Assembly: GCA_900343135.1 (NCBI GenBank)
Contig: OPYK01000004.1
Location: 1 to 64,000, forward strand
Source of the DNA: Atopobium massiliense
Lineage (GTDB): Bacteria > Actinomycetota > Coriobacteriia > Coriobacteriales > Atopobiaceae
Length of the DNA: 64,000 nt
Direction of reading: 5' to 3'
Under the pieces are notes generated by a model. The model was not told where the DNA came from and searched no databases. It saw only the letters and a program-made list of their open reading frames with translations. The position numbers and the translations under genes were made by a program. Below, piece by piece: positions 13,398 to 46,224 of the stretch. Within the stretch, counting starts at the first letter, position 1; each line of letters starts with the position of its first letter.

Positions 13398-13676
13398 GCT
13401 ATTCCTTTCGTTGAGCGCACCTAGCGCAGAGGCTGGCGTGATATATTGCACGCGTGTACCTGCACGTCACGTGCGTGCGTCTATAACTTCTCCATATACT
13501 ATACCGTAAGTTTGCCGTGTTAGCACTGTGCATAACCCAAGTATATAACTGCACGTACATGGCTTTTTATGTACAAAATTTTGTATATTATCCGTTGTAC
13601 CACCATGCGTGCTTATACAAGGCTTACCCGTGCGCGTGCTACAATAGTGAGCAACTTACACAACAAAGGATTACTT

Positions 13677-14834
13677 ATGCCGAGAAACCACTCTCACCAC
13701 GCGTCCAATACCACCGAACCCACACCCGCAGCTGATACCGCAGCTGGTGGTGCGTCCAACCAAGCAGCCAACCAAGGCTCTAACCAAGCAGCCAACCAAG
13801 GCGGCGCGGTTGGATTTAACTCCTACACGCCGTCGCACCTTGCATCTGCAACTCAGCGCGCGGTGCACCGCACGCCAGCGGCGCATGCTGCAGCTGCACA
13901 TGCGCAAAGCGGTCAGGACGCGCGCGGGGATGCGTTTGGCAAAGCCGAGGCGAGCAGCTCTTCATTCAACCAAACAAGCAGGTCAAACCCCAAAAATACC
14001 AAGCGTCACGGCGGGCCTGTTGCGTTTGTTAAGCGGCATATTTCAACCATACTTATGTGCATTGGTGTTGCGCTTATGCTGGCCGCCGCCGGCTACTGGG
14101 GCTACTCGCAGTGGTGCTACTATGAGCAGGCGCAAACAAACAGCAAGCTTGCGGCGTTTGCCACCGTGCCCGACCAAACAGATAACCAGGTAAACGATGG
14201 TGTGCGCGAGGACACGTCGACGGCACCGCAGGTAGATTGGCAAGGCCTGAAGGCAGTTAATAGCGAGGTTGTTGGCTGGCTGCAGGTGCCCAACACCCCT
14301 ATAAACTACCCCGTTTACCAGGGAAAAGATAACGAGCACTATCTGCGCCACAATGCTGAGGGTAAGTGGACCATTGGCGGGCAAATTTTTATGGATTGCG
14401 ATAACACGGCGCCCGGGCTTGTGGACCAGCAAAGCGTTTTGTATGGCCATCACCTTAAAGACGGCTCGATGTTTTATCACTTCTTTTTACTGCGCGAACC
14501 CCAAAATTTTGAGGCAATGACCTGCGTATGGTATGTAACTGAGCACGCGGCGTACCGCCTGCGCCCGCTGTTTTATTATTACACCAATCCCGACGACCAA
14601 AACGTGCGTAAGTTTACGTTTGGTACCAACGACGAGTTTAGGGCGTATTTGCAGGAGCGGCTTAAGTTGGCTGTTACAAAAATGGACGATGCCGAAAAAA
14701 TTATTCCGCACATAACAAAGGTAATGACCATGTCTACCTGCAATTATGAGCCGGGTTTTGGTAGGTCGGAAACCGTATGCGCGCTGCAACGTGAAATTGA
14801 CTTGGCGGAGCAGGAGATTAATAGCGCAAAGTAG
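13677..14834 (+). CDS. srtB: Class B sortase
   Basis: A 385-residue transpeptidase that cuts sorting signals and links proteins to peptidoglycan on the outside of the membrane. The N-terminal 110 residues are low-complexity (Asn/Gln/Ala, with repeats of the SNQAANQG type) and cytoplasmic. A transmembrane helix near residues 120-145 is followed by the sortase domain with VGWLQVPNTPINYPVYQG, catalytic His in LYGHHLKDGSMF and catalytic Cys in MSTCNYEPG. The Arg is in GFGRSETV. The N-terminal tail is much longer than usual for SrtB. ATG 13677 follows AAAGGA. Likely substrates are the surface proteins at 20051 and 24653. Confidence 0.9.
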   Translation: MPRNHSHHASNTTEPTPAADTAAGGASNQAANQGSNQAANQGGAVGFNSYTPSHLASATQRAVHRTPAAHAAAAHAQSGQDARGDAFGKAEASSSSFNQTSRSNPKNTKRHGGPVAFVKRHISTILMCIGVALMLAAAGYWGYSQWCYYEQAQTNSKLAAFATVPDQTDNQVNDGVREDTSTAPQVDWQGLKAVNSEVVGWLQVPNTPINYPVYQGKDNEHYLRHNAEGKWTIGGQIFMDCDNTAPGLVDQQSVLYGHHLKDGSMFYHFFLLREPQNFEAMTCVWYVTEHAAYRLRPLFYYYTNPDDQNVRKFTFGTNDEFRAYLQERLKLAVTKMDDAEKIIPHITKVMTMSTCNYEPGFGRSETVCALQREIDLAEQEINSAK

Positions 14835-22740: not shown

Positions 22741-24012
22741 TTACCGGTGTGAGTTGGTGTTGTCCGTGCGCGGCACTGCTATATACGTGCGTCTTTCACG
22801 CGGCTCGCGCCCGCGCGTCACGTCGCCGCGCTCGCGCCCGTCGGAAATTCGCCTATTCACGTCGCTCATAAATTGCTTGTACGACCCCGCGGCATCGGCC
22901 AACTTTGCACCAACAGCATCGCTCAGCCCAGCCATCCTCGCCCCAACAGCGTTAGTCACTCCCGTTCCAACAGCGTCGGCAAACCCTACGCCAAAGCATT
23001 CAATAAACGCACCAATATATTCACGCGTTATCGGGCTCACCTTTGACGCAGCAGCATACACCCGCTTCCAACAGCGCGGATCGCCCACAATTTCGGTTAT
23101 GTCGTTTTTACCGCTTGCATACAGCGCATCAAAAATCTCGTCAACAGCCTGTTTTTCAGCGTCTTTCACAAGCGATCGCTCCCAGCGCGCATGCATTTGC
23201 GCTACTCGCGTTGCCGCCGGATGCAAACCGCGCGCAGCAATAAACGATGTGGCACCCACGCACCACGACAGCGGCTCATGCTCAAACAGCCCCATCGCTG
23301 TGCTTTTCACCACAAAACATGGTGCAGCATCGGTGCCAAACAGCTGTCCTACTACGCTAAATTCGGGCACAATGCGCCGGTAGCGGCTGCCATACACCGT
23401 GTAGGGGTTGGGCACATTAAGCGCGGGAGAAAAACCGGGCCCATCCAGGTTATAAACCGCTGCAATGCGCTGCTGCAGCTCCTGCGGCATCGACACTGCC
23501 GCAAATGCAGCAAGATTGCCACCTTTAGAGTGACCAAGCACGGCGATGGGAAGTGGGGTGGGGTGCTCACGTGCGGGGTTGTCGTCCGCCACACCACACC
23601 CGCCGTCAGCACCGCTACCGCCGGCCACCACCTGCGCCAAGTACTCCCGCGCCATCGTTTGTGCTGGTACCTCACCCAACTCCAGCAAAAAATCTTCTTT
23701 CCACCCAGCAATCGACAAATCGGTTCCCCTAAAACACACCAGTTCAAACGTGTTTGGCACGCTCCAGGTTTCCGCGCAAAACTGTACGTGCTTGGCGTTG
23801 TTGCACACGTCGGTGTAATTGCGCAGTACCACGTGCGCGTAGCGCGGCGCATTGGCTAGCTGCTCAAACATGCGGCGCGCGGGCGCAATCATGCTGCGGA
23901 TATAGGCAGGGTTGATAGTTTTACTGTCAGGCGGTGTAAGGGCAACAAGGCTGCGCGCAAGGTCGCTTCGCCAGGTGAGGTAGTCGTAGATGGTAGTTTG
24001 AGCGGATGCCAT
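22741..24012 (-). CDS. DUF2974 alpha/beta-hydrolase (lipase-like) protein
   Basis: A 423-residue protein of the DUF2974 group, predicted serine hydrolases related to lipases. It starts with the typical IYDYLTWRSDLA region, has the FRGTDLSIAGWKEDF block, and the nucleophile elbow GHSKGGNLA near residue 180, followed by NLDGPGF. Substrate and location are unknown; no signal peptide is visible. The C-terminal 80 residues repeat Ala/Val/Gly units (DAVGTGVTNAVGARMAGLS) that look like tandem heptad-like repeats, and end in Arg-rich sequence. ATG 24012 follows AAAGGGGGC; an in-frame ATG 45 bases upstream lacks a binding site. Confidence 0.85.
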   Translation of the reverse strand: MASAQTTIYDYLTWRSDLARSLVALTPPDSKTINPAYIRSMIAPARRMFEQLANAPRYAHVVLRNYTDVCNNAKHVQFCAETWSVPNTFELVCFRGTDLSIAGWKEDFLLELGEVPAQTMAREYLAQVVAGGSGADGGCGVADDNPAREHPTPLPIAVLGHSKGGNLAAFAAVSMPQELQQRIAAVYNLDGPGFSPALNVPNPYTVYGSRYRRIVPEFSVVGQLFGTDAAPCFVVKSTAMGLFEHEPLSWCVGATSFIAARGLHPAATRVAQMHARWERSLVKDAEKQAVDEIFDALYASGKNDITEIVGDPRCWKRVYAAASKVSPITREYIGAFIECFGVGFADAVGTGVTNAVGARMAGLSDAVGAKLADAAGSYKQFMSDVNRRISDGRERGDVTRGREPRERRTYIAVPRTDNTNSHR

Positions 24013-24652
24013 GCTGCCCCCTTTGCGCTGTTGATATATGTGGTACGTGTGTTGCACCTGCGTTGCAATGCAGGTGCAATGGCGCGTAAGCTACCGTGCG
24101 CCGCCATGCGCGAGCGCGCAACTATGCGTATACTGCATGCTTAGCGCATATAAGGTATGCGTGTTTGTAATAACTTCATACAAGAAATGTGTACACTCTG
24201 TGATTTTACGTAAGTGTACACGTATTGCCATTTTCGCGCTACTCATCGTAAAACCCGCTTTGCCCACTGCTTTGGCCACTTTTGCACTCACGCTGCCACC
24301 AAGCCGTCTTTGTACGTACGATATACAACATGCACACCTCAAGCGTACGGGATGCACTACATCACGTGTTATCACAAACAACTGCGGGGGGGGGTCAATG
24401 GTAAAGACCCTAGCGAGCGTATTTTTTGCTCGCAATTCGCGTCACGCAGTAACAAAATCGCACCTACAATGGCATACCGATTGTAACCGTTTACCGAGAA
24501 AACCCCCGTGCACCCTGCGGCGAGCAGCCTGGTTTGCTAAAATTTAGCTTAAAGCGAACTCAAACGTGGTATATATCTTACTATACACACCTATATCACG
24601 ACTATATTTGTACGTGCACGCCGCGCCCGTCACTACGAAAGGAGCTTTTATT
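24013..24652. other. Long divergent promoter region between DUF2974 gene and giant adhesin
   Basis: About 640 bp without a credible gene. It must hold the adhesin promoter; an AT-rich stretch with TATATCTTACTATACAC lies near 24571-24587. A 9-G tract sits at 24386-24394. The ribosome binding site GAAAGGAG is at 24637-24644. Confidence 0.5.
24386..24394 (+). repeat. Homopolymeric G9 tract upstream of the giant adhesin
   Basis: Nine consecutive G residues lie about 260 bp upstream of the adhesin start. A second G9 tract lies within the adhesin gene. Tracts of this length are prone to slippage during replication and often mediate on/off or graded expression. Confidence 0.9.
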
Positions 24653-27600
24653 ATGGCTCGCAAAAAATATGGTAAGCACAGTAAAACTCCCGCTGCAACT
24701 TCTGCTACAGCTCGCCGCTCACACGTTGCGCTTGGAGCTGCAACCGCGGTAGTGGGCGCATCTCTTGCCTTGGGCGTAACTCCCGCGTTTGCACAGACTG
24801 GTGCTACTACTCCTGTTGCTCCTGCGCAACCTGGTACTCCTACTGCGCAACCTGCAGCGCCCGCTAATAATAAACCTGCCAAGGCTCAAACACCCGTTGT
24901 TAAACAGGGCGATAAAAAACAAGTCGAAACTAAAGTTGATAAGAAACAAGCCGACACAGCCGAAAAAACCGAGCGGGGGGGGGTATCCTCCACGAAGCCT
25001 GCCGCTGGTAACAAGGTCGCTGGCAATAGCAGCGTAGCACCACAAGCGCCTAAGGCAGTACAAGGTACAGACAGAGATGTCAATCCTGCTCCAGCTCCAA
25101 AACCTCAAGCTAACAGCACCGTCGAACTTTCAAAAGACAAAAAAGACACCCTGCCAAACATGTACGCATGGGGTTCTTCCAACAATGTCTATATTGAAAA
25201 TGGACAAAACCAAGAAGTTAAATTTATTCTTAAGTCAGCCGATGGTGTTGCAGTTACCAAGGTGGCTATTTTCCCGAACGATAACATTGATATTAATGGT
25301 AGGAACGCAAAGCAGTTTGTTGAGTATAGGACTGATGATGCTGATGGTACCTGGCATCAAGCTTATTCTGGCAAGTACTCTTTTGTAACAAACAAAGCCG
25401 ATGGCTCCGCTACTCTTACCATGAGCCCCATGTATAGAAACAACAACATGGCAGCAGCAGGATATGCCGCAAACCGCTGCATCTATGTGTATGGCATGAA
25501 AGACGGGCAGGAAGTCTTGCTGTACAAAACGAACATCGCACGTGCGGCAACACTTATTCCGCCTAAAAAAACAGGTTCCGTTGTTTTAAAATACAACGAA
25601 GAACTTACCGACGAGCAAATTCGTGCGAAGCTAAAAGCCGCCCTTGATGCCCCTACCGAAGGCAAAGATGGTAAATCACTTCGCGAACAAATTAAAGATG
25701 CAAGCACCGCTAAAGGCGTGGGTGTGCGCGATAAAAATGACAATAGAAAACTTGATACAACACCCGATAACCCTGAGAAAAAGGTTGTTGTTACCGATAA
25801 GCAAGCGTATGTACCCACTGAGCTTGATAAGATTAACACGGTAACGTCCGCAGCAGACGCCAAAGAAAAAACATATAAAACCGGTGTTACGAACCTTAAA
25901 ACCTACCTGGTTTCCGACCTTGGCTACAAATCCGAGGCACTTGCGCTTACGGTTGCGCGCTACGATACGCGCATTGATAAGCCAGTTGTTACAGACCCGA
26001 ACAGCATCTCCGACGACGTAAAGAAGGAAATCGCAAAGAAGCTGGCCAATCTTAACCACATTCCTCAAGACAAAGTTACCGTTAACGCCGACGGCACAGT
26101 TACCATCAACTTTGAAGGTGTAGACGCTAAAGACGCTCCTAAGCTTAATCTCAGCGACCTCGTTTTGAAGCAGCTTGCGGAAGCTGATGTTAAGGTTCCA
26201 ACTGGTGATAAAGCAACCTTTGTGGCTAATCCACTTGGATATTCAAACGCTGAACTTGACCGAATCAAGCAGTCGATTTTGGATGCTAATAAAGACAATA
26301 AAAAGCTTGGTCTTACCAGCAAAGATCAGATTACGCTTGAGTATGTTAAAGGTGATACTACCGTTGGTCATGAAAATATAGGTATCTCGAACGGTCAGGC
26401 GGAAAACAAGATTACCGTTAAGATCAAGACCGATAAGGCTGTTGCTGAGTTTACGTCTAATGTAAAAGAGAGCAAGCTTACAAAGCTTCCAAACATTCGT
26501 ACAGATTACGACGTTTCGTGGGACAAGACTAAGATTGATGGTCGCGATACCGACGAAGGCATTTCTTGGAGTAATGATAGTAAAACCACGATCATCTACC
26601 GCTACGACCCAACCAAAGCAGAAGAATTTGATACAACAAAAATTCTTGGTTTGCTGAAAGCTACGCCAAAAGACAAGCAAGCTGGTTTGCGTGACCTTCA
26701 AGGCGGCGAGCAGCTCGATCACGAAGATTCAAACGGTAAACCTCGCAAGTCGCACATGCACTATGCGCTGCAGGGTGACGAACCAACAGGCGAGCTTTCG
26801 CTGGGCAATATGAGCGGTGCATACTGGATAGGCAACCAAAAGGTGAGCCATTCCGATGAAAAACTCGGTGATAATTTATCAGAAGCTGGTTCGTATTCAT
26901 GGGATACAGAAGCTGGTTCGGTAAAGGTAGCCGGCAAAAAGGGCAAAATCTACAAAGCGCGTTTATTTGTTCAGCCGTATGCAATGTCATACTATAAGGA
27001 CGTGTATCTGGAACAAGGCCGCAACCCAGGCAACACCGCAAAAGCTATCAACATTATCTTTGTGCCGCAGACGAATCACAAGACGAGCGATTTGAAGACG
27101 TCGGTTGATGAGCACAAACTTGCTGCTGACAAGAAGACTCCAACTGATTCTGCGTACTACAATGCGTCTGACAAAGTGAAGAAAGACTACGAAGATGCGC
27201 TTAGCAATGCAAAGACGCTGTATGACTCTGTGAAGGATACAGCTGAAAAAGACCTTACCGAAGAGCAGAAGGCGCAAATCGATAACGCGACGATTACGCT
27301 TAAGAAGGCGCGTGCGGCTCTTGATGGTGCTAAGACCGACAAGAACGGCTTGACCCAGTCGATTGAAGCCAATGGCAAGGCTAAAGAAGGTCAAGCTGCT
27401 GAAGTAGCTGGCACTGTAACTACTGATAAGTATAAGAACGTTACTGAACCTGACTTCAAGAAGGCCGACGGTTCTGCTGACACCGAAAGGAATGAAGCAG
27501 CTAAGAAAGCCAAAGAAGCTTACGACAAGGCTCTCGAAGACGCTAAGGCGTTAAAGGATGACGAAAACGCCACGCAAAAGGCTGTTGATGCTGCCAAGGC

Positions 27601-30600
27601 GAAACTTGATGCTGCACGCGCAAAGCTTAACGACTTTACCACCAACAAGGATGAGTTGAGCGCCGCGATTGCCAAGGACGGCAAGGTGAACACGGGTGAG
27701 GCTGGCAAGACAGGTGACGAAAAACTTAAGACCGCCGACCCAACCTACCAAAACTCTACCAAGGAAGAGCGCGACGCATACGATGAGGCTGTTGCTGAAG
27801 CTCAAAAAGTAGTTGGTGATCCAAACGCTTCCCAGAAGGAAGTGAACGAGGCTATCAAGAAGCTTAAGGACGCTAAGTCAAAGCTAGACGCTAAGGCTAC
27901 AGATAAGTCTAAGCTTGCCGCTGCGGAAAAGCAGAGCTTTGATAATCCTGATGCTAATGATACAAGCAAACAGAGCGTGTTCTACAAAAATGCACTAAAC
28001 AAGAAAGACAACGGTGCAAGCGAGCAAGAAAAACAAGCAGCAGAACAAGCAATTAAGAATTATGACCAGGCATTAGCTAATGCTCGCACCATTCTTAACA
28101 ACGAAAAAGCAACTCAAGCGCAAGTTGATGAAGCTAAGACAAAGCTTGAAGAAGCTGAAAAAGCACTGCATGAGAATTATAAGTCCGACGATAACGACCT
28201 TACGAAGGCAATCGCAAACAATGTGAGCGGTTACCTTATGCCTGCGTACTTCAATGCGTTTGATCAGGCTCAAAAGGATGGCGCAGACTCTCAGGCTGCG
28301 AAGGACTTCAAAGCCTACAATGACGCCTATCAGAAAGCTAAGGAATTAAGCAAGAAGCTTAAGGAGACTGAAGAGTCCAAGAAGCCAAAGCAAACAGAGA
28401 TTGATGCTGCAAAGACTGCGCTCGAAGAAGCCCGTAAGGTCATCGATAAGTACGCAACCGATACCAGCAAGATTTCGGCGGCGCTGCTTCACAGCTTGGC
28501 TATTACTAATAGCCCGGCGTATAAGAATGCGTCCGCTGGTGCTGAAGGTTCTGACGAGGCTAAGGCAAAGAAGGCGTACGACGATGCGCTTAAGGAGTTG
28601 CAAAAAGCCTTTAATGACCAAATGGACAAGGACAAGGGTGACGACGGTAACGAAATCTCAGAGTCTGTTATTCCAGATAAGAACATTGATATGACCAACA
28701 AAGATGCGCTTAAGAAGTTGCAAGCGCACGCTAAGGGTCAGCCTTTGAATAGGGATGTAACAAGGCTCCTTGCAAAGCTTAATGATGCTGTTAAAGGTCT
28801 GGATAAGTTTAAGACTAATACCGACGAGCTGATTAAGTCGATTAATGAGGACGCAACCACGCATCCAAGCCCTGCGTTTAAGAACGCATCAGTTCATAAT
28901 TATTTGGATACTGATGGTAATGCGGATTCTGCTAAGAACGCCGCTGCGCGTAAGGCTGCCGGTGATTATGGTCAAGCTCTTAATGAAGCTAGGGATTTGT
29001 TGAACAATCCTAACGCTACGCAGAAGGACATCAACGACGCTAAGGATAAGCTTGACAAAGCCCGCAAAGAGCTTGACAAGTACAACACCGATACCGCCAA
29101 GCTTGTGGAAAGCGTAAAGAAGCACGGTGATACAGAGGGCACTGCGCCTACAGAAGGAACGCAAACTTCTGATGCATATCGCAACGCGTCTGATCCTCAT
29201 TTCTTAACTGCTGATGGCAAGCCTGACACTACCAAGAATGATGCAGCCAAGAAAGCTAAGACCGATTACGACAAGGCGTTGGTTGAAGCCCAAGAGCTTT
29301 TGAATAAGCATGACGATAAAGCTACACCACAAGACGCAAAGCCAACGCAAGCAGAAATCAACGACGCGCTTAAGAAGCTCGATGACGCTCGTAAGAAGCT
29401 TGAGGACAACTACAAGACGAACACCGATGCGCTTGAGGCAGAAGCTAATAAGTCTACTCCTGAGAATACCGCTGTTACTGAACACGACTTTGAAGCTACG
29501 CCAGAGTTCAAGAACGCTCAAGCCAAGAGAAAGGATGGTGCGGAAAACGCAGACGTTGCTGCTTACAAGGAAGCTCTTAAGAACGCGCGCGATCTTGCAA
29601 AGGCTGCTCATCCTACAGATCCAGATGCAAAGAACAGTTCTTATCCAACTCAAAAGCAGATCAACGATGCGCTTGATGCCCTTAAAGCGGCTAAGAAGCA
29701 AATCACCGACAACTACAAGACAAATCTTGACGCGTTGACCGCTGCCAAAGACTTTGCAGATGACGGCTTTAAGAAAACTCCTGAATACAAGAATGCTCTT
29801 GCTAAGAAGGCTGCTGGAGATCAGACTGCAAAAACTGACCTTGGTATAGAAAATCAGCAAACTGGCTTTGACAATGTTCTCAATCAAATCAAGCAGAAAC
29901 TTAATGATGAGAACTGGAAGAAAACAGCAACTCAGAAGTCTGTAAACAACTTGCTAAAGAAGTTGCAAGATGCTCAAAACAAGATTGCTAAGGACTACAA
30001 GACTGATGCCAAGCTGCTCTCTAACGAGGTGGGCGATAAGGATGTTCAGGGCAATGATGTAACACCTCCGTTCGAGGCGACAGTTGAGTACAAGAATGCG
30101 CTTACGAAGAAGGATGCTGAATCTGAAGAGGATGCCAAGAAAGATGATTCCGCAACCAAGAAGCTCAAGGACTACGCCGACAAGCTGAAAGCAGCACAAG
30201 ACTTGATTGCGCAGGTAAACAGCACCGATCCGAATGCTGATCCAGATAAAAAGCCAACCCAAGCGCAGGTAGACCAGGCTCTGACTGATCTTAAGGCTGC
30301 GAAAGATGCAATCACCAATGGTTTCAAGACCAACGCTAAGGATTTGAAGAAAGAAACGAACGAGCTTAAGGACAACGGTCAACCAAAGGATGACAAAGAC
30401 AAGTTTGAAAACTCTACCGAGTATAAGAACGCGTTTGCTAAGACGGATGCTGACAGCAAAAACGATGTACAAACGTACAAAGATGCCCTAAAGAAAGCTA
30501 ACGAGCTTCTTCAGTTGTTCAACGATGATGGTACGCCAAAAGCTGATATCCCAGCTGGAAAGCAAATTCCAACTCAGCAAGAAGTTGACGAAGCTCAGAA

Positions 30601-31684
30601 GGCTCTTAAGGAAATCAAGGACAAGATTCTTGCTAACTACAAGACCAATCCTGTTGACCTGCAAAAAGAAGTTGACCTGTCTAAGGACGGCGACGACGAC
30701 AAGCGTGATGACGTGTTTGAGAACACTCCAGAGTTCCAGAACGCGACTGCTAAGGGTGATGATGCTGCCAAGCAAGCTCTTAAGGATTACACCGACAAGC
30801 TTAAAGCTGCCAGGGATATGCTTGACAAGTTTGACCGTGCAACTGGCCAGCCGAAGAAAGACGCAAAGGATGTTCCAACGCAAGCCAAACTCGACGAAGC
30901 CCTAAAAGCCTTGCAAGACGCGAAAGCGAAGATCGAAAACGATTACGCAACCAAGAAAGAGGATCTCACAAAAGACTACGACAGCAGAAACAAGGAGCAC
31001 ACCAGCGACTACACGATGGCGTCGAAAGATAAGCAGGAAGCATACTCGAAGATGCTTGATGAAGCAAATAAGGTGCTCAAAGACCCGAACGCTACGCAAG
31101 CCGAGGTAGATGCGGCGCAGGCTGCGCTTAAGAAGGCGCTCGAAGAGCTTGTGAAATCGGCAAATGCTAACCGTCGTGCGTACTACGAGGACATGGTAAT
31201 TGACGCGCGCAATGCGCTGCAAAAGCTGGTAGATGCAAACGAAGCGACGCACCTTAAAGACCTGTACACGCACGCGGAGCCTGCTGCACAACACGAGTTT
31301 ATGGCAGCTATGGACAACGCAAAGAAAGTGCTTGCCGACAAAGAGGCGCTTGCGAGTGAGCTTGATGCTGCACGCGTACGCCTGCTCCAGGCGCTCGACG
31401 GCCTTGCAAAGCATCAACTGCCAGGCATGACCAACGCAGGTGCAGGTGCGGGCGCCAATGGCAACGCGGGTGCGGCTGCCAACGGTGCAGCTGGATACGG
31501 CGCGCACGCAGCGGGCGCATATGGTAGAGGTGCTCATGCAGCGGGTCGCGTACGCGCGCACGCAGGAAAGCACCTTGCGCAAACGTCCGACCCAACAAAT
31601 GCGCTGGCAGCTGCCGGCATGCTGGCTTCTGCCTTAGGCTTTATAGCAATGGGCTTTAAAACGAAAAAACGTCGCGCAAAGTAG
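24653..31684 (+). CDS. Giant repetitive cell-wall adhesin (FIVAR-like modules, sortase signal LAQTSD)
   Basis: A 2,343-residue secreted protein. The start ATG 24653 follows GAAAGGAG. A signal peptide covers about residues 1-50, ending ALGVTPAFAQ. A Pro/Ala/Lys-rich linker with the G9 tract at codons 108-110 comes next. A non-repetitive ligand-type region spans about 150-800, including YAWGSSNNVYIENGQN. From about 812 to 2180 there are about 13 degenerate helical modules with a recurring NATQxxVDxAxxxLxxA-type core and YKTNxxxL linkers, like the FIVAR modules of Gram-positive adhesins. A Gly/Ala region, LAQTSD near residue 2306, a hydrophobic helix and KTKKRRAK form an anchor. It probably extends from the wall and mediates adhesion. 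Confidence 0.9.
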   Translation: MARKKYGKHSKTPAATSATARRSHVALGAATAVVGASLALGVTPAFAQTGATTPVAPAQPGTPTAQPAAPANNKPAKAQTPVVKQGDKKQVETKVDKKQADTAEKTERGGVSSTKPAAGNKVAGNSSVAPQAPKAVQGTDRDVNPAPAPKPQANSTVELSKDKKDTLPNMYAWGSSNNVYIENGQNQEVKFILKSADGVAVTKVAIFPNDNIDINGRNAKQFVEYRTDDADGTWHQAYSGKYSFVTNKADGSATLTMSPMYRNNNMAAAGYAANRCIYVYGMKDGQEVLLYKTNIARAATLIPPKKTGSVVLKYNEELTDEQIRAKLKAALDAPTEGKDGKSLREQIKDASTAKGVGVRDKNDNRKLDTTPDNPEKKVVVTDKQAYVPTELDKINTVTSAADAKEKTYKTGVTNLKTYLVSDLGYKSEALALTVARYDTRIDKPVVTDPNSISDDVKKEIAKKLANLNHIPQDKVTVNADGTVTINFEGVDAKDAPKLNLSDLVLKQLAEADVKVPTGDKATFVANPLGYSNAELDRIKQSILDANKDNKKLGLTSKDQITLEYVKGDTTVGHENIGISNGQAENKITVKIKTDKAVAEFTSNVKESKLTKLPNIRTDYDVSWDKTKIDGRDTDEGISWSNDSKTTIIYRYDPTKAEEFDTTKILGLLKATPKDKQAGLRDLQGGEQLDHEDSNGKPRKSHMHYALQGDEPTGELSLGNMSGAYWIGNQKVSHSDEKLGDNLSEAGSYSWDTEAGSVKVAGKKGKIYKARLFVQPYAMSYYKDVYLEQGRNPGNTAKAINIIFVPQTNHKTSDLKTSVDEHKLAADKKTPTDSAYYNASDKVKKDYEDALSNAKTLYDSVKDTAEKDLTEEQKAQIDNATITLKKARAALDGAKTDKNGLTQSIEANGKAKEGQAAEVAGTVTTDKYKNVTEPDFKKADGSADTERNEAAKKAKEAYDKALEDAKALKDDENATQKAVDAAKAKLDAARAKLNDFTTNKDELSAAIAKDGKVNTGEAGKTGDEKLKTADPTYQNSTKEERDAYDEAVAEAQKVVGDPNASQKEVNEAIKKLKDAKSKLDAKATDKSKLAAAEKQSFDNPDANDTSKQSVFYKNALNKKDNGASEQEKQAAEQAIKNYDQALANARTILNNEKATQAQVDEAKTKLEEAEKALHENYKSDDNDLTKAIANNVSGYLMPAYFNAFDQAQKDGADSQAAKDFKAYNDAYQKAKELSKKLKETEESKKPKQTEIDAAKTALEEARKVIDKYATDTSKISAALLHSLAITNSPAYKNASAGAEGSDEAKAKKAYDDALKELQKAFNDQMDKDKGDDGNEISESVIPDKNIDMTNKDALKKLQAHAKGQPLNRDVTRLLAKLNDAVKGLDKFKTNTDELIKSINEDATTHPSPAFKNASVHNYLDTDGNADSAKNAAARKAAGDYGQALNEARDLLNNPNATQKDINDAKDKLDKARKELDKYNTDTAKLVESVKKHGDTEGTAPTEGTQTSDAYRNASDPHFLTADGKPDTTKNDAAKKAKTDYDKALVEAQELLNKHDDKATPQDAKPTQAEINDALKKLDDARKKLEDNYKTNTDALEAEANKSTPENTAVTEHDFEATPEFKNAQAKRKDGAENADVAAYKEALKNARDLAKAAHPTDPDAKNSSYPTQKQINDALDALKAAKKQITDNYKTNLDALTAAKDFADDGFKKTPEYKNALAKKAAGDQTAKTDLGIENQQTGFDNVLNQIKQKLNDENWKKTATQKSVNNLLKKLQDAQNKIAKDYKTDAKLLSNEVGDKDVQGNDVTPPFEATVEYKNALTKKDAESEEDAKKDDSATKKLKDYADKLKAAQDLIAQVNSTDPNADPDKKPTQAQVDQALTDLKAAKDAITNGFKTNAKDLKKETNELKDNGQPKDDKDKFENSTEYKNAFAKTDADSKNDVQTYKDALKKANELLQLFNDDGTPKADIPAGKQIPTQQEVDEAQKALKEIKDKILANYKTNPVDLQKEVDLSKDGDDDKRDDVFENTPEFQNATAKGDDAAKQALKDYTDKLKAARDMLDKFDRATGQPKKDAKDVPTQAKLDEALKALQDAKAKIENDYATKKEDLTKDYDSRNKEHTSDYTMASKDKQEAYSKMLDEANKVLKDPNATQAEVDAAQAALKKALEELVKSANANRRAYYEDMVIDARNALQKLVDANEATHLKDLYTHAEPAAQHEFMAAMDNAKKVLADKEALASELDAARVRLLQALDGLAKHQLPGMTNAGAGAGANGNAGAAANGAAGYGAHAAGAYGRGAHAAGRVRAHAGKHLAQTSDPTNALAAAGMLASALGFIAMGFKTKKRRAK
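24975..24983 (+). repeat. Homopolymeric G9 tract inside the adhesin coding sequence
   Basis: Nine G residues encode the Arg-Gly-Gly-Val stretch at codons 108-111. Gain of one G would bring a TAA into frame at 25009-25011. Loss of one G would shift into a frame ending near 25037. Either change leaves only the signal peptide and linker, which is the usual design of a phase-variable surface gene. Confidence 0.92.
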
Positions 31685-45171: not shown

Positions 45172-45179
45172 CCCCCCCC
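45172..45179 (+). repeat. C8 homopolymer tract upstream of a D,D-carboxypeptidase gene
   Basis: Eight consecutive C residues lie about 100 bp before the start at 45277. The position could place it in the promoter or 5' UTR, where length changes can alter expression. Confidence 0.85.
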
Positions 45180-45276
45180 GCGCACCACCGTAAGGAACGT
45201 GCGGCATCATGAGGTATTGCACGCCGTACGTGAGGTTATGTACAATATCCTAAACACGGTAAACGGGAGGCAAACT

Positions 45277-46224
45277 ATGAACAGGCTCCATAAAAACAGG
45301 CGAAATGTGCTGCTCATTGTGGGTTTTATAGTTTTGGCAGTGGTTGCTGTCGCGTTCGGTCTTTTTAAAAACAGGATTTTACAATCAAGCCTATTTATGA
45401 GTGTTAACGACAAAATCGATTATATCTTTAATACTAAAGACCTTAAAATCCCAGATGACGCGCTTGCATTTTCGGTATATGACATGAATGCGAATAACTA
45501 CTTGTTTTATGAGGGCGCAGGTCAGCTGCCAACCGTTGCAAGCCTGTCCAAACTTTTTGCCATAGATTACGCACTTAGTAAGGTTAAGCTTGATGACGTT
45601 TTTGAAGCCAACGAAGAAACGCTTAAACTTGTACCTGCGGGTTCATCGATGGCTAATCTAACGCGTGGAACGTATACTGCAAAGCAAATTTTTCAGGCGA
45701 TGCTTGTTCCATCCGGAAACGACGCGGCGTATGTTATGGCATATAATATCGGCAAATTAGACTTAGGCGCCGGTCACAGTGCAAAAGAATATACCAATCA
45801 TTTTGTAAAATCACTGAGTACATATTTAGCACGTGAGGGCTATAGCAAAACGCATCTCTTTGATCCAAGTGGATTTTCAATGCAGGCTGATACCAATCTG
45901 GATGACATTAATAGGGTAACTCTTAAACTGCTTAATTACGATTTTGTCAAAGAGTGCATGGGAGAGAGCTCGTTTACCATTACAACAAAACAGGGCAATT
46001 TTACCTGGAAAAATACCAATGAATTTTTAGATAAAGAGTCGCTGTTTTACAATAGTCACATCAAAGGCGTAAAAACGGGAACGATGGGGTCTTCTTATAA
46101 TATTATTGCTTTGTACGAGAACGATGGTAGAAGATATTTAATTACCTGTTTAGCTGCGCACTCAAACAAAGACAGATACCAGGCTGTTCAGGCGGCCATA
46201 CATACGATTATCGAAAAACAATAA
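45277..46224 (+). CDS. D-alanyl-D-alanine carboxypeptidase (S11-type)
   Basis: A 315-residue protein with one N-terminal membrane anchor (residues 9-30) and an extracytoplasmic penicillin-binding domain. All three active-site motifs are present: SLSK in VASLSKLF, SGN in PSGNDAAYVM and KTG in GVKTGTMG. It would remove the terminal D-Ala of peptidoglycan stem peptides. ATG 45277 follows GGGAGG and is preferred over a longer frame starting at 45199. It lies between the first ECF operon and an AAA_14/DUF4143 gene. A small repeat of GGAACTGCT units follows the stop. Confidence 0.9.
   Translation: MNRLHKNRRNVLLIVGFIVLAVVAVAFGLFKNRILQSSLFMSVNDKIDYIFNTKDLKIPDDALAFSVYDMNANNYLFYEGAGQLPTVASLSKLFAIDYALSKVKLDDVFEANEETLKLVPAGSSMANLTRGTYTAKQIFQAMLVPSGNDAAYVMAYNIGKLDLGAGHSAKEYTNHFVKSLSTYLAREGYSKTHLFDPSGFSMQADTNLDDINRVTLKLLNYDFVKECMGESSFTITTKQGNFTWKNTNEFLDKESLFYNSHIKGVKTGTMGSSYNIIALYENDGRRYLITCLAAHSNKDRYQAVQAAIHTIIEKQ

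Follow-up and report, generated by a model that had tools for sequence, protein, structure and literature searches.

A gene of the window (the whole stretch of 64,000 nucleotides analysed here, from contig OPYK01000004.1 of Atopobium massiliense) carries a tract of nine Gs in its 5' coding part, which raises the question of whether the length of this tract switches a large surface protein on and off. An earlier note had placed the tract in codons 108-111 and had predicted that one added G would bring in a TAA at 25009, that one lost G would lead to a stop near 25037, and that both changes would remove a surface part of about 2,200 residues. The open reading frame starting at ATG 24653 confirmed the position of the tract, which reads CGG GGG GGG GTA (Arg-Gly-Gly-Val), and in silico edits bore out the predicted outcomes. 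The addition of one G gave a 119-residue product, the loss of one G gave a 127-residue product, and about 2,220 residues were removed each time. Changes of three Gs in either direction retained the full-length protein.

The FIVAR profile (PF07554) matched the protein in six stretches with 141.7 bits, above the curated cut-off. From this type of domain the label adhesin is a reasonable guess, and an adhesive role of the product is predicted from its sequence. At the C-terminus, a homologue from Umbribacter vaginalis has LPKTGD where the window adhesin has LAQTSD. The adhesin matched no solved structure in a PDB sequence search and no entry in an NCBIfam search, and a plasmid search with the region gave no match. 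The coordinates of the gene, the tracts and the associated features are collected in Table 1.

Table 1. Features of the adhesin locus and positions of the long G/C tracts of the genome (plain coordinates refer to the window)
Feature	Position	Strand	Product or remark	Basis
Adhesin gene	24653-31684	+	2,343-aa secreted FIVAR-repeat surface protein	ORF, translation, Pfam
Shine-Dalgarno AAAGGAG	24638-24644	+	good match	sequence
Predicted signal peptide	24653-24793	+	residues 1-47 (...VTPAFA)	judged by eye; aligns with homologues
Best of six FIVAR matches	27728-27889	+	residues 1026-1079	PF07554 profile
Sorting-signal-like C-terminus	31574-31681	+	LAQTSD, hydrophobic stretch, KKRRAK (non-canonical LPXTG)	translation
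Sortase	13569-14834	+	sole one found in genome; detected at 14280-14744	genome search
G9 coding tract, codon 108	24975-24983	+	FIVAR adhesin; proposed translational on/off switch	sequence, in silico edits, genome-wide context
TAA met after +1 G (or -2)	25009-25011	+		in silico tract edit
TAG met after -1 G (or +2)	25035-25037	+		in silico tract edit
Second G9	24386-24394	+	candidate second switch; 258 bases before adhesin ATG	sequence
Coding tract, codon 6	C4		C69-peptidase-like secreted protein	
Coding tract, codon 37	C7		691-aa secreted protein	
Coding tract, codon 12	C8:18449		GA-module protein	
Coding tract, in signal peptide	C10:27984		aRib/GA/FIVAR protein, about 1,840 aa	
Coding tract, codon 53	C9:7381		DUF5648 protein	
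Upstream tracts	C8:123441, C9:5296, C10:4692, C10:7695, C14:83036, window 24386		75-267 bases before start codon	

The earlier note had called homopolymers of this length unusual for coding DNA of this composition. A G7/G8 pattern search on both strands of the whole genome (1,548,103 bases, 16 contigs) found one G/C run of length 7, one of length 8, 11 of length 9 and one of length 10. When Markov models of order 1-3 were fitted to the window and projected to the 1.548-Mb genome, they gave an expectation of 0.8-1.2 G/C runs of at least nine and of 20-25 runs of exactly seven. The long repeats are therefore both longer and commoner than chance would provide (12 seen against about one expected), as is looked for in contingency loci. 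The length distribution of G/C runs in the genome shows a gap at lengths 6-8 followed by a second mode at 9, and the A/T runs of the window drop smoothly (94, 20 and 1 at lengths 6, 7 and 8) without any such mode. The second mode at length 9 is no chance tail. An order-5 model, trained on the window that itself includes the tracts, expected about 10 runs of at least nine, but also about 42 of length 7, of which one was seen. A comparison of poly-G counts across relatives gave no guidance, because the counts range widely and the genomes differ in base composition and assembly quality.

All 12 long tracts were found at genes for secreted or surface proteins (signal peptides judged by eye), six in the 5' coding part, within codons 6-111, and six located 75-267 bp upstream of the start codon. 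Most of these genes encode Rib, GA, FIVAR, DUF5648, C69 and similar domains, and the tracts thus show the association with surface or host-interaction genes expected of contingency loci. Each of the six coding tracts is in frame at length 9, which has a probability of about 0.001 by chance if lengths are random. A change of one base in either direction alters the frame and in silico truncates every one of the six products to 10-127 residues. The DUF5648 surface gene with the tract at C9:7381 (L033:5804-7546, minus strand) also contains an in-frame TAA that follows the tract by about 54 codons; we considered the gene as an OFF-phase allele and rejected this, because the tract is in frame and it is the later, separate stop that interrupts the gene. 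The only 8-run of the genome, eight Cs at 45172-45179 of the window, lies shortly before the gene for a secreted Peptidase_S11-like protein (45199-46224) and is perhaps a shortened or incipient tract. As this run and the single 7-run are also near gene starts, such a location is not exclusive to the proposed set.

These counts bear on two rival explanations of the coding G9. The tract might be a neutral G run in a low-complexity linker without any switching role, and the alignment with the homologues from U. vaginalis, Gardnerella and NR021 does place it in a variable linker that all three are missing. A neutral run would nevertheless leave unexplained why 12 long runs occur where about one is expected, with almost none of length 7 or 8, and why each of the 12 stands either at the beginning of a surface gene or upstream of one, which makes this explanation very improbable. 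The tract length might instead be an artefact of sequencing or assembly. Poly-G is hard to sequence, gaps adjoin 12 of the 42 tracts in three other genomes, and G-tract lengths in databases have been the subject of a warning (PMC9187656). The assembled tract length could represent a consensus or could be wrong, and the near-uniform length of 9 could come in part from base-calling. However, the intact frame of all six coding tracts at length 9 argues against random length errors, and the A/T homopolymers show no second mode, so that an artefact is extremely unlikely.

The upstream tracts were analysed by a promoter test, in which sigma70 -35/-10 pairs spanning the tract were compared with flank shuffles for 24 upstream tracts from four genomes. 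A spanning promoter in the orientation of the gene was found for 12 of the 24 (p<=0.05), and on the other strand for one. In this genome, three of the six upstream tracts lie between the -35 and -10 boxes, where a unit change alters promoter spacing: TTGAAA-N8-G10-TATACT at C10:4692 (L034:4692) and TTGAAA-N8-G9-T-TATACT at C8:123441 (L032:7942), both with the tract inside an 18-base spacer, and TTGACG-(17)-TAAGAT around the tract at C9:5296. The promoters at L034:4692 and L032:7942 are nearly alike, and both genes encode DUF5648/List_Bact_rpt domains. The adhesin gene itself has a second G9, absent from the earlier note, in the divergent intergenic region between an Mbeg1-like gene (22741-24057, minus strand) and the adhesin. 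A promoter spanning this upstream tract was tried and rejected, as no -35/-10 pair fits (p=0.58 against flank shuffles) whose spacing a unit change would alter.

The earlier note had also proposed a check of the mismatch-repair genes. This genome had no hit to the profiles for MutL (PF01119), MutS_V (PF00488, which would report MutS2 too) or NucS (PF01939), and the control genomes were positive. Because the genome is 95.5% complete, the absence of MutS, MutL and NucS is likely rather than certain. U. vaginalis likewise had no match to the three profiles, and in Gardnerella and NR021 only NucS was found among them. All Coriobacteriia examined in a previous study were without NucS and MutS-MutL (PMC5290159).

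The adhesin has homologues with 75% identity (over residues 1-2108) in U. vaginalis DNF00809, 63% in Gardnerella GED7760B and 58% in Bifidobacteriaceae NR021. None of the three has the coding tract, and all carry upstream tracts, of length 9-13 and at differing positions: ten Cs located 180 bases before the ATG in U. vaginalis, 13 Gs located 332 bases before it in Gardnerella, and nine Gs adjoining an assembly gap in NR021. The gene body shares 78% DNA identity with that of U. vaginalis, and a search for similarity between the upstream DNA of the two found none. A further 2,397-aa surface protein of this genome, the adhesin at C14:83036 (L037), is 84-85% identical in the DNA of its start region to genes of Gardnerella and NR021 (L087, L111), and the homology reaches about 180 bases upstream; where this genome has a G9, the other two have AGAGAG(C/T)T and carry C15/C10 tracts farther upstream. 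The presence of tracts at different places on homologous genes indicates that the tracts arose separately. In the family of C10:27984, a coding LGGG tract occupies the same position in this genome, Gardnerella and NR021.

The DnaB protein of the window is 55-71% identical to those of its own family, 44% to that of U. vaginalis and 39-40% to those of Gardnerella and NR021, and therefore U. vaginalis DNF00809, which the 75% adhesin identity might have suggested to be a close relative, was rejected as such. This member of the Coriobacteriia probably belongs to another family than U. vaginalis. The N-terminal 833 residues of the adhesin (window 25121-27620) had no full-length relative among 139 other genomes of the family. 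An adhesin identity well above that of DnaB, together with the lack of a family relative, points to horizontal sharing of the adhesin with U. vaginalis, and the similarity of the C14 adhesin points to exchange between classes. We tentatively propose, as a plausible though by no means favoured scenario, that bacteria associated with humans and spread over different orders and classes (this member of the Coriobacteriia, U. vaginalis, Gardnerella and NR021) swap a pool of giant adhesin genes, and that in each recipient a poly-G switch is built anew at these genes, in the promoter region or at the start of the coding part; the ability to switch would then be selected again and again on the same genes. 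A scan of viral contigs for the sequences on either side of the tract, with the gap between them left variable, gave no match. In the U. vaginalis, Gardnerella and NR021 drafts, the assembly gaps beside poly-G/C tracts (L084, L087, L097, L098, L039, L101, L107-L110) are as expected if tract lengths are mixed or hard to sequence. In U. vaginalis DNF00809, an in-frame C9 tract also lies near codon 51 of L079:2447-3259 (minus strand), whose product gave no Pfam match and has a DNPPF motif like those of adenine methylases; this product is possibly a phase-variable methylase.

The homologues raise the question of which of the two tracts of the adhesin gene matters. The upstream G9 could be the main switch, acting on transcription, with the coding tract secondary, as the homologues carry upstream tracts only and promoters extend across many of the upstream tracts in these genomes. 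The tract at 24386 is, however, spanned by no -35/-10 pair and is 258 bp away from the ATG, and the coding tract unavoidably affects the frame; a leading role of the upstream tract thus appears rather unlikely, and both tracts may act. Homopolymer runs can promote slippage of the polymerase or the ribosome, and if this rescued alleles of off length, expression would be graded rather than on/off. Work on both kinds of slippage is cited in a study of Bifidobacterium breve (PMC9187656). Against such a rescue, the frame is already open at G9 and none is needed, and we consider it improbable.

Taken together, the bimodal run lengths, the placement of all 12 tracts, the intact frame of all six coding tracts, the spacer tracts, the tracts of the homologues and the lack of detectable MutS, MutL and NucS support the reading of the earlier note, and from them we infer switching at 24975-24983 itself: this G9 is very probably a contingency site that turns the adhesin on and off by slipped-strand mispairing. 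During replication the tract would gain or lose one G, and the slippage products would go uncorrected by the MutS, MutL and NucS pathways. With nine Gs, or nine plus or minus a multiple of three, the frame would be intact and the FIVAR adhesin secreted and probably wall-anchored; the assembled G9 would then correspond to the ON state in the population. With eight or ten Gs, translation would stop at most 20 codons past the tract and leave only a short secreted N-terminal fragment, a loss of the surface part that would be reversible. The three upstream tracts between -35 and -10 boxes would set promoter strength. In the larger picture, the coding G9 is probably one of a genome-wide set of switches on surface proteins, and some of the tract-bearing surface genes are common to bacteria of different classes.

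If the tract switches, cells of one clonal population would wear different surface coats, and independent switching of all 12 tracts would allow as many as 2^12 combinations. Such a mixture would have consequences for adhesion, biofilm formation and immune recognition. No report of poly-G phase variation in Coriobacteria, Eggerthella or Atopobium was found in the literature searched, and the mechanism being known, its occurrence in this lineage and gene appears to be new. The range of poly-G phase variation, known from Gardnerella and Bifidobacterium, would then include the Coriobacteriia, which are reported to lack MutS/MutL and NucS. The findings also point to a set of switchable adhesins that moves horizontally and is shared among bacteria, agents of bacterial vaginosis included.

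In Gardnerella, G/C tracts of at least 8 are abundant; some 70% are upstream and roughly a quarter lie within ORFs, they are common at genes for Rib, GA, FIVAR, InlB and LPXTG proteins, and one tract of a GA gene had 9 or 10 bases among colonies by Sanger sequencing (Garcia et al. 2024, PMC11287997). The tracts described here resemble those variable tracts in their FIVAR, GA and Rib surface genes, and the Gardnerella homologue of the window adhesin has its own upstream G13. In contrast, strain GED7760B encodes NucS, whereas the present case is a member of the Coriobacteriia with a coding tract in the adhesin and no MutS, MutL or NucS detected. In B. breve, an intragenic G tract switches sortase pili on and off, and the replication slippage was measured by maximum-depth sequencing (Penno et al. 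2022, PMC9187656). As in B. breve, the intragenic tract stands near the 5' end of a surface gene and the frame depends on its length; the B. breve gene encodes a sortase substrate, and the window adhesin has a predicted variant sorting signal. Unlike the pilin operons of B. breve, with a tract of 11-12 at bbr_0113 and slippage shown, the gene studied here is a stand-alone FIVAR adhesin with a tract of 9. In Neisseria, the classical poly-G/C contingency loci (porA, opc type) are of two kinds: tracts in the 5' coding part, which act on translation, and tracts in the -35/-10 spacer, which act on transcription. These bacteria are Gram-negative and have MutS and MutL, and the genes are unrelated to the window adhesin. 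The tracts of this genome are like those loci in occupying both kinds of position, the 5' coding part and the -35/-10 spacer.
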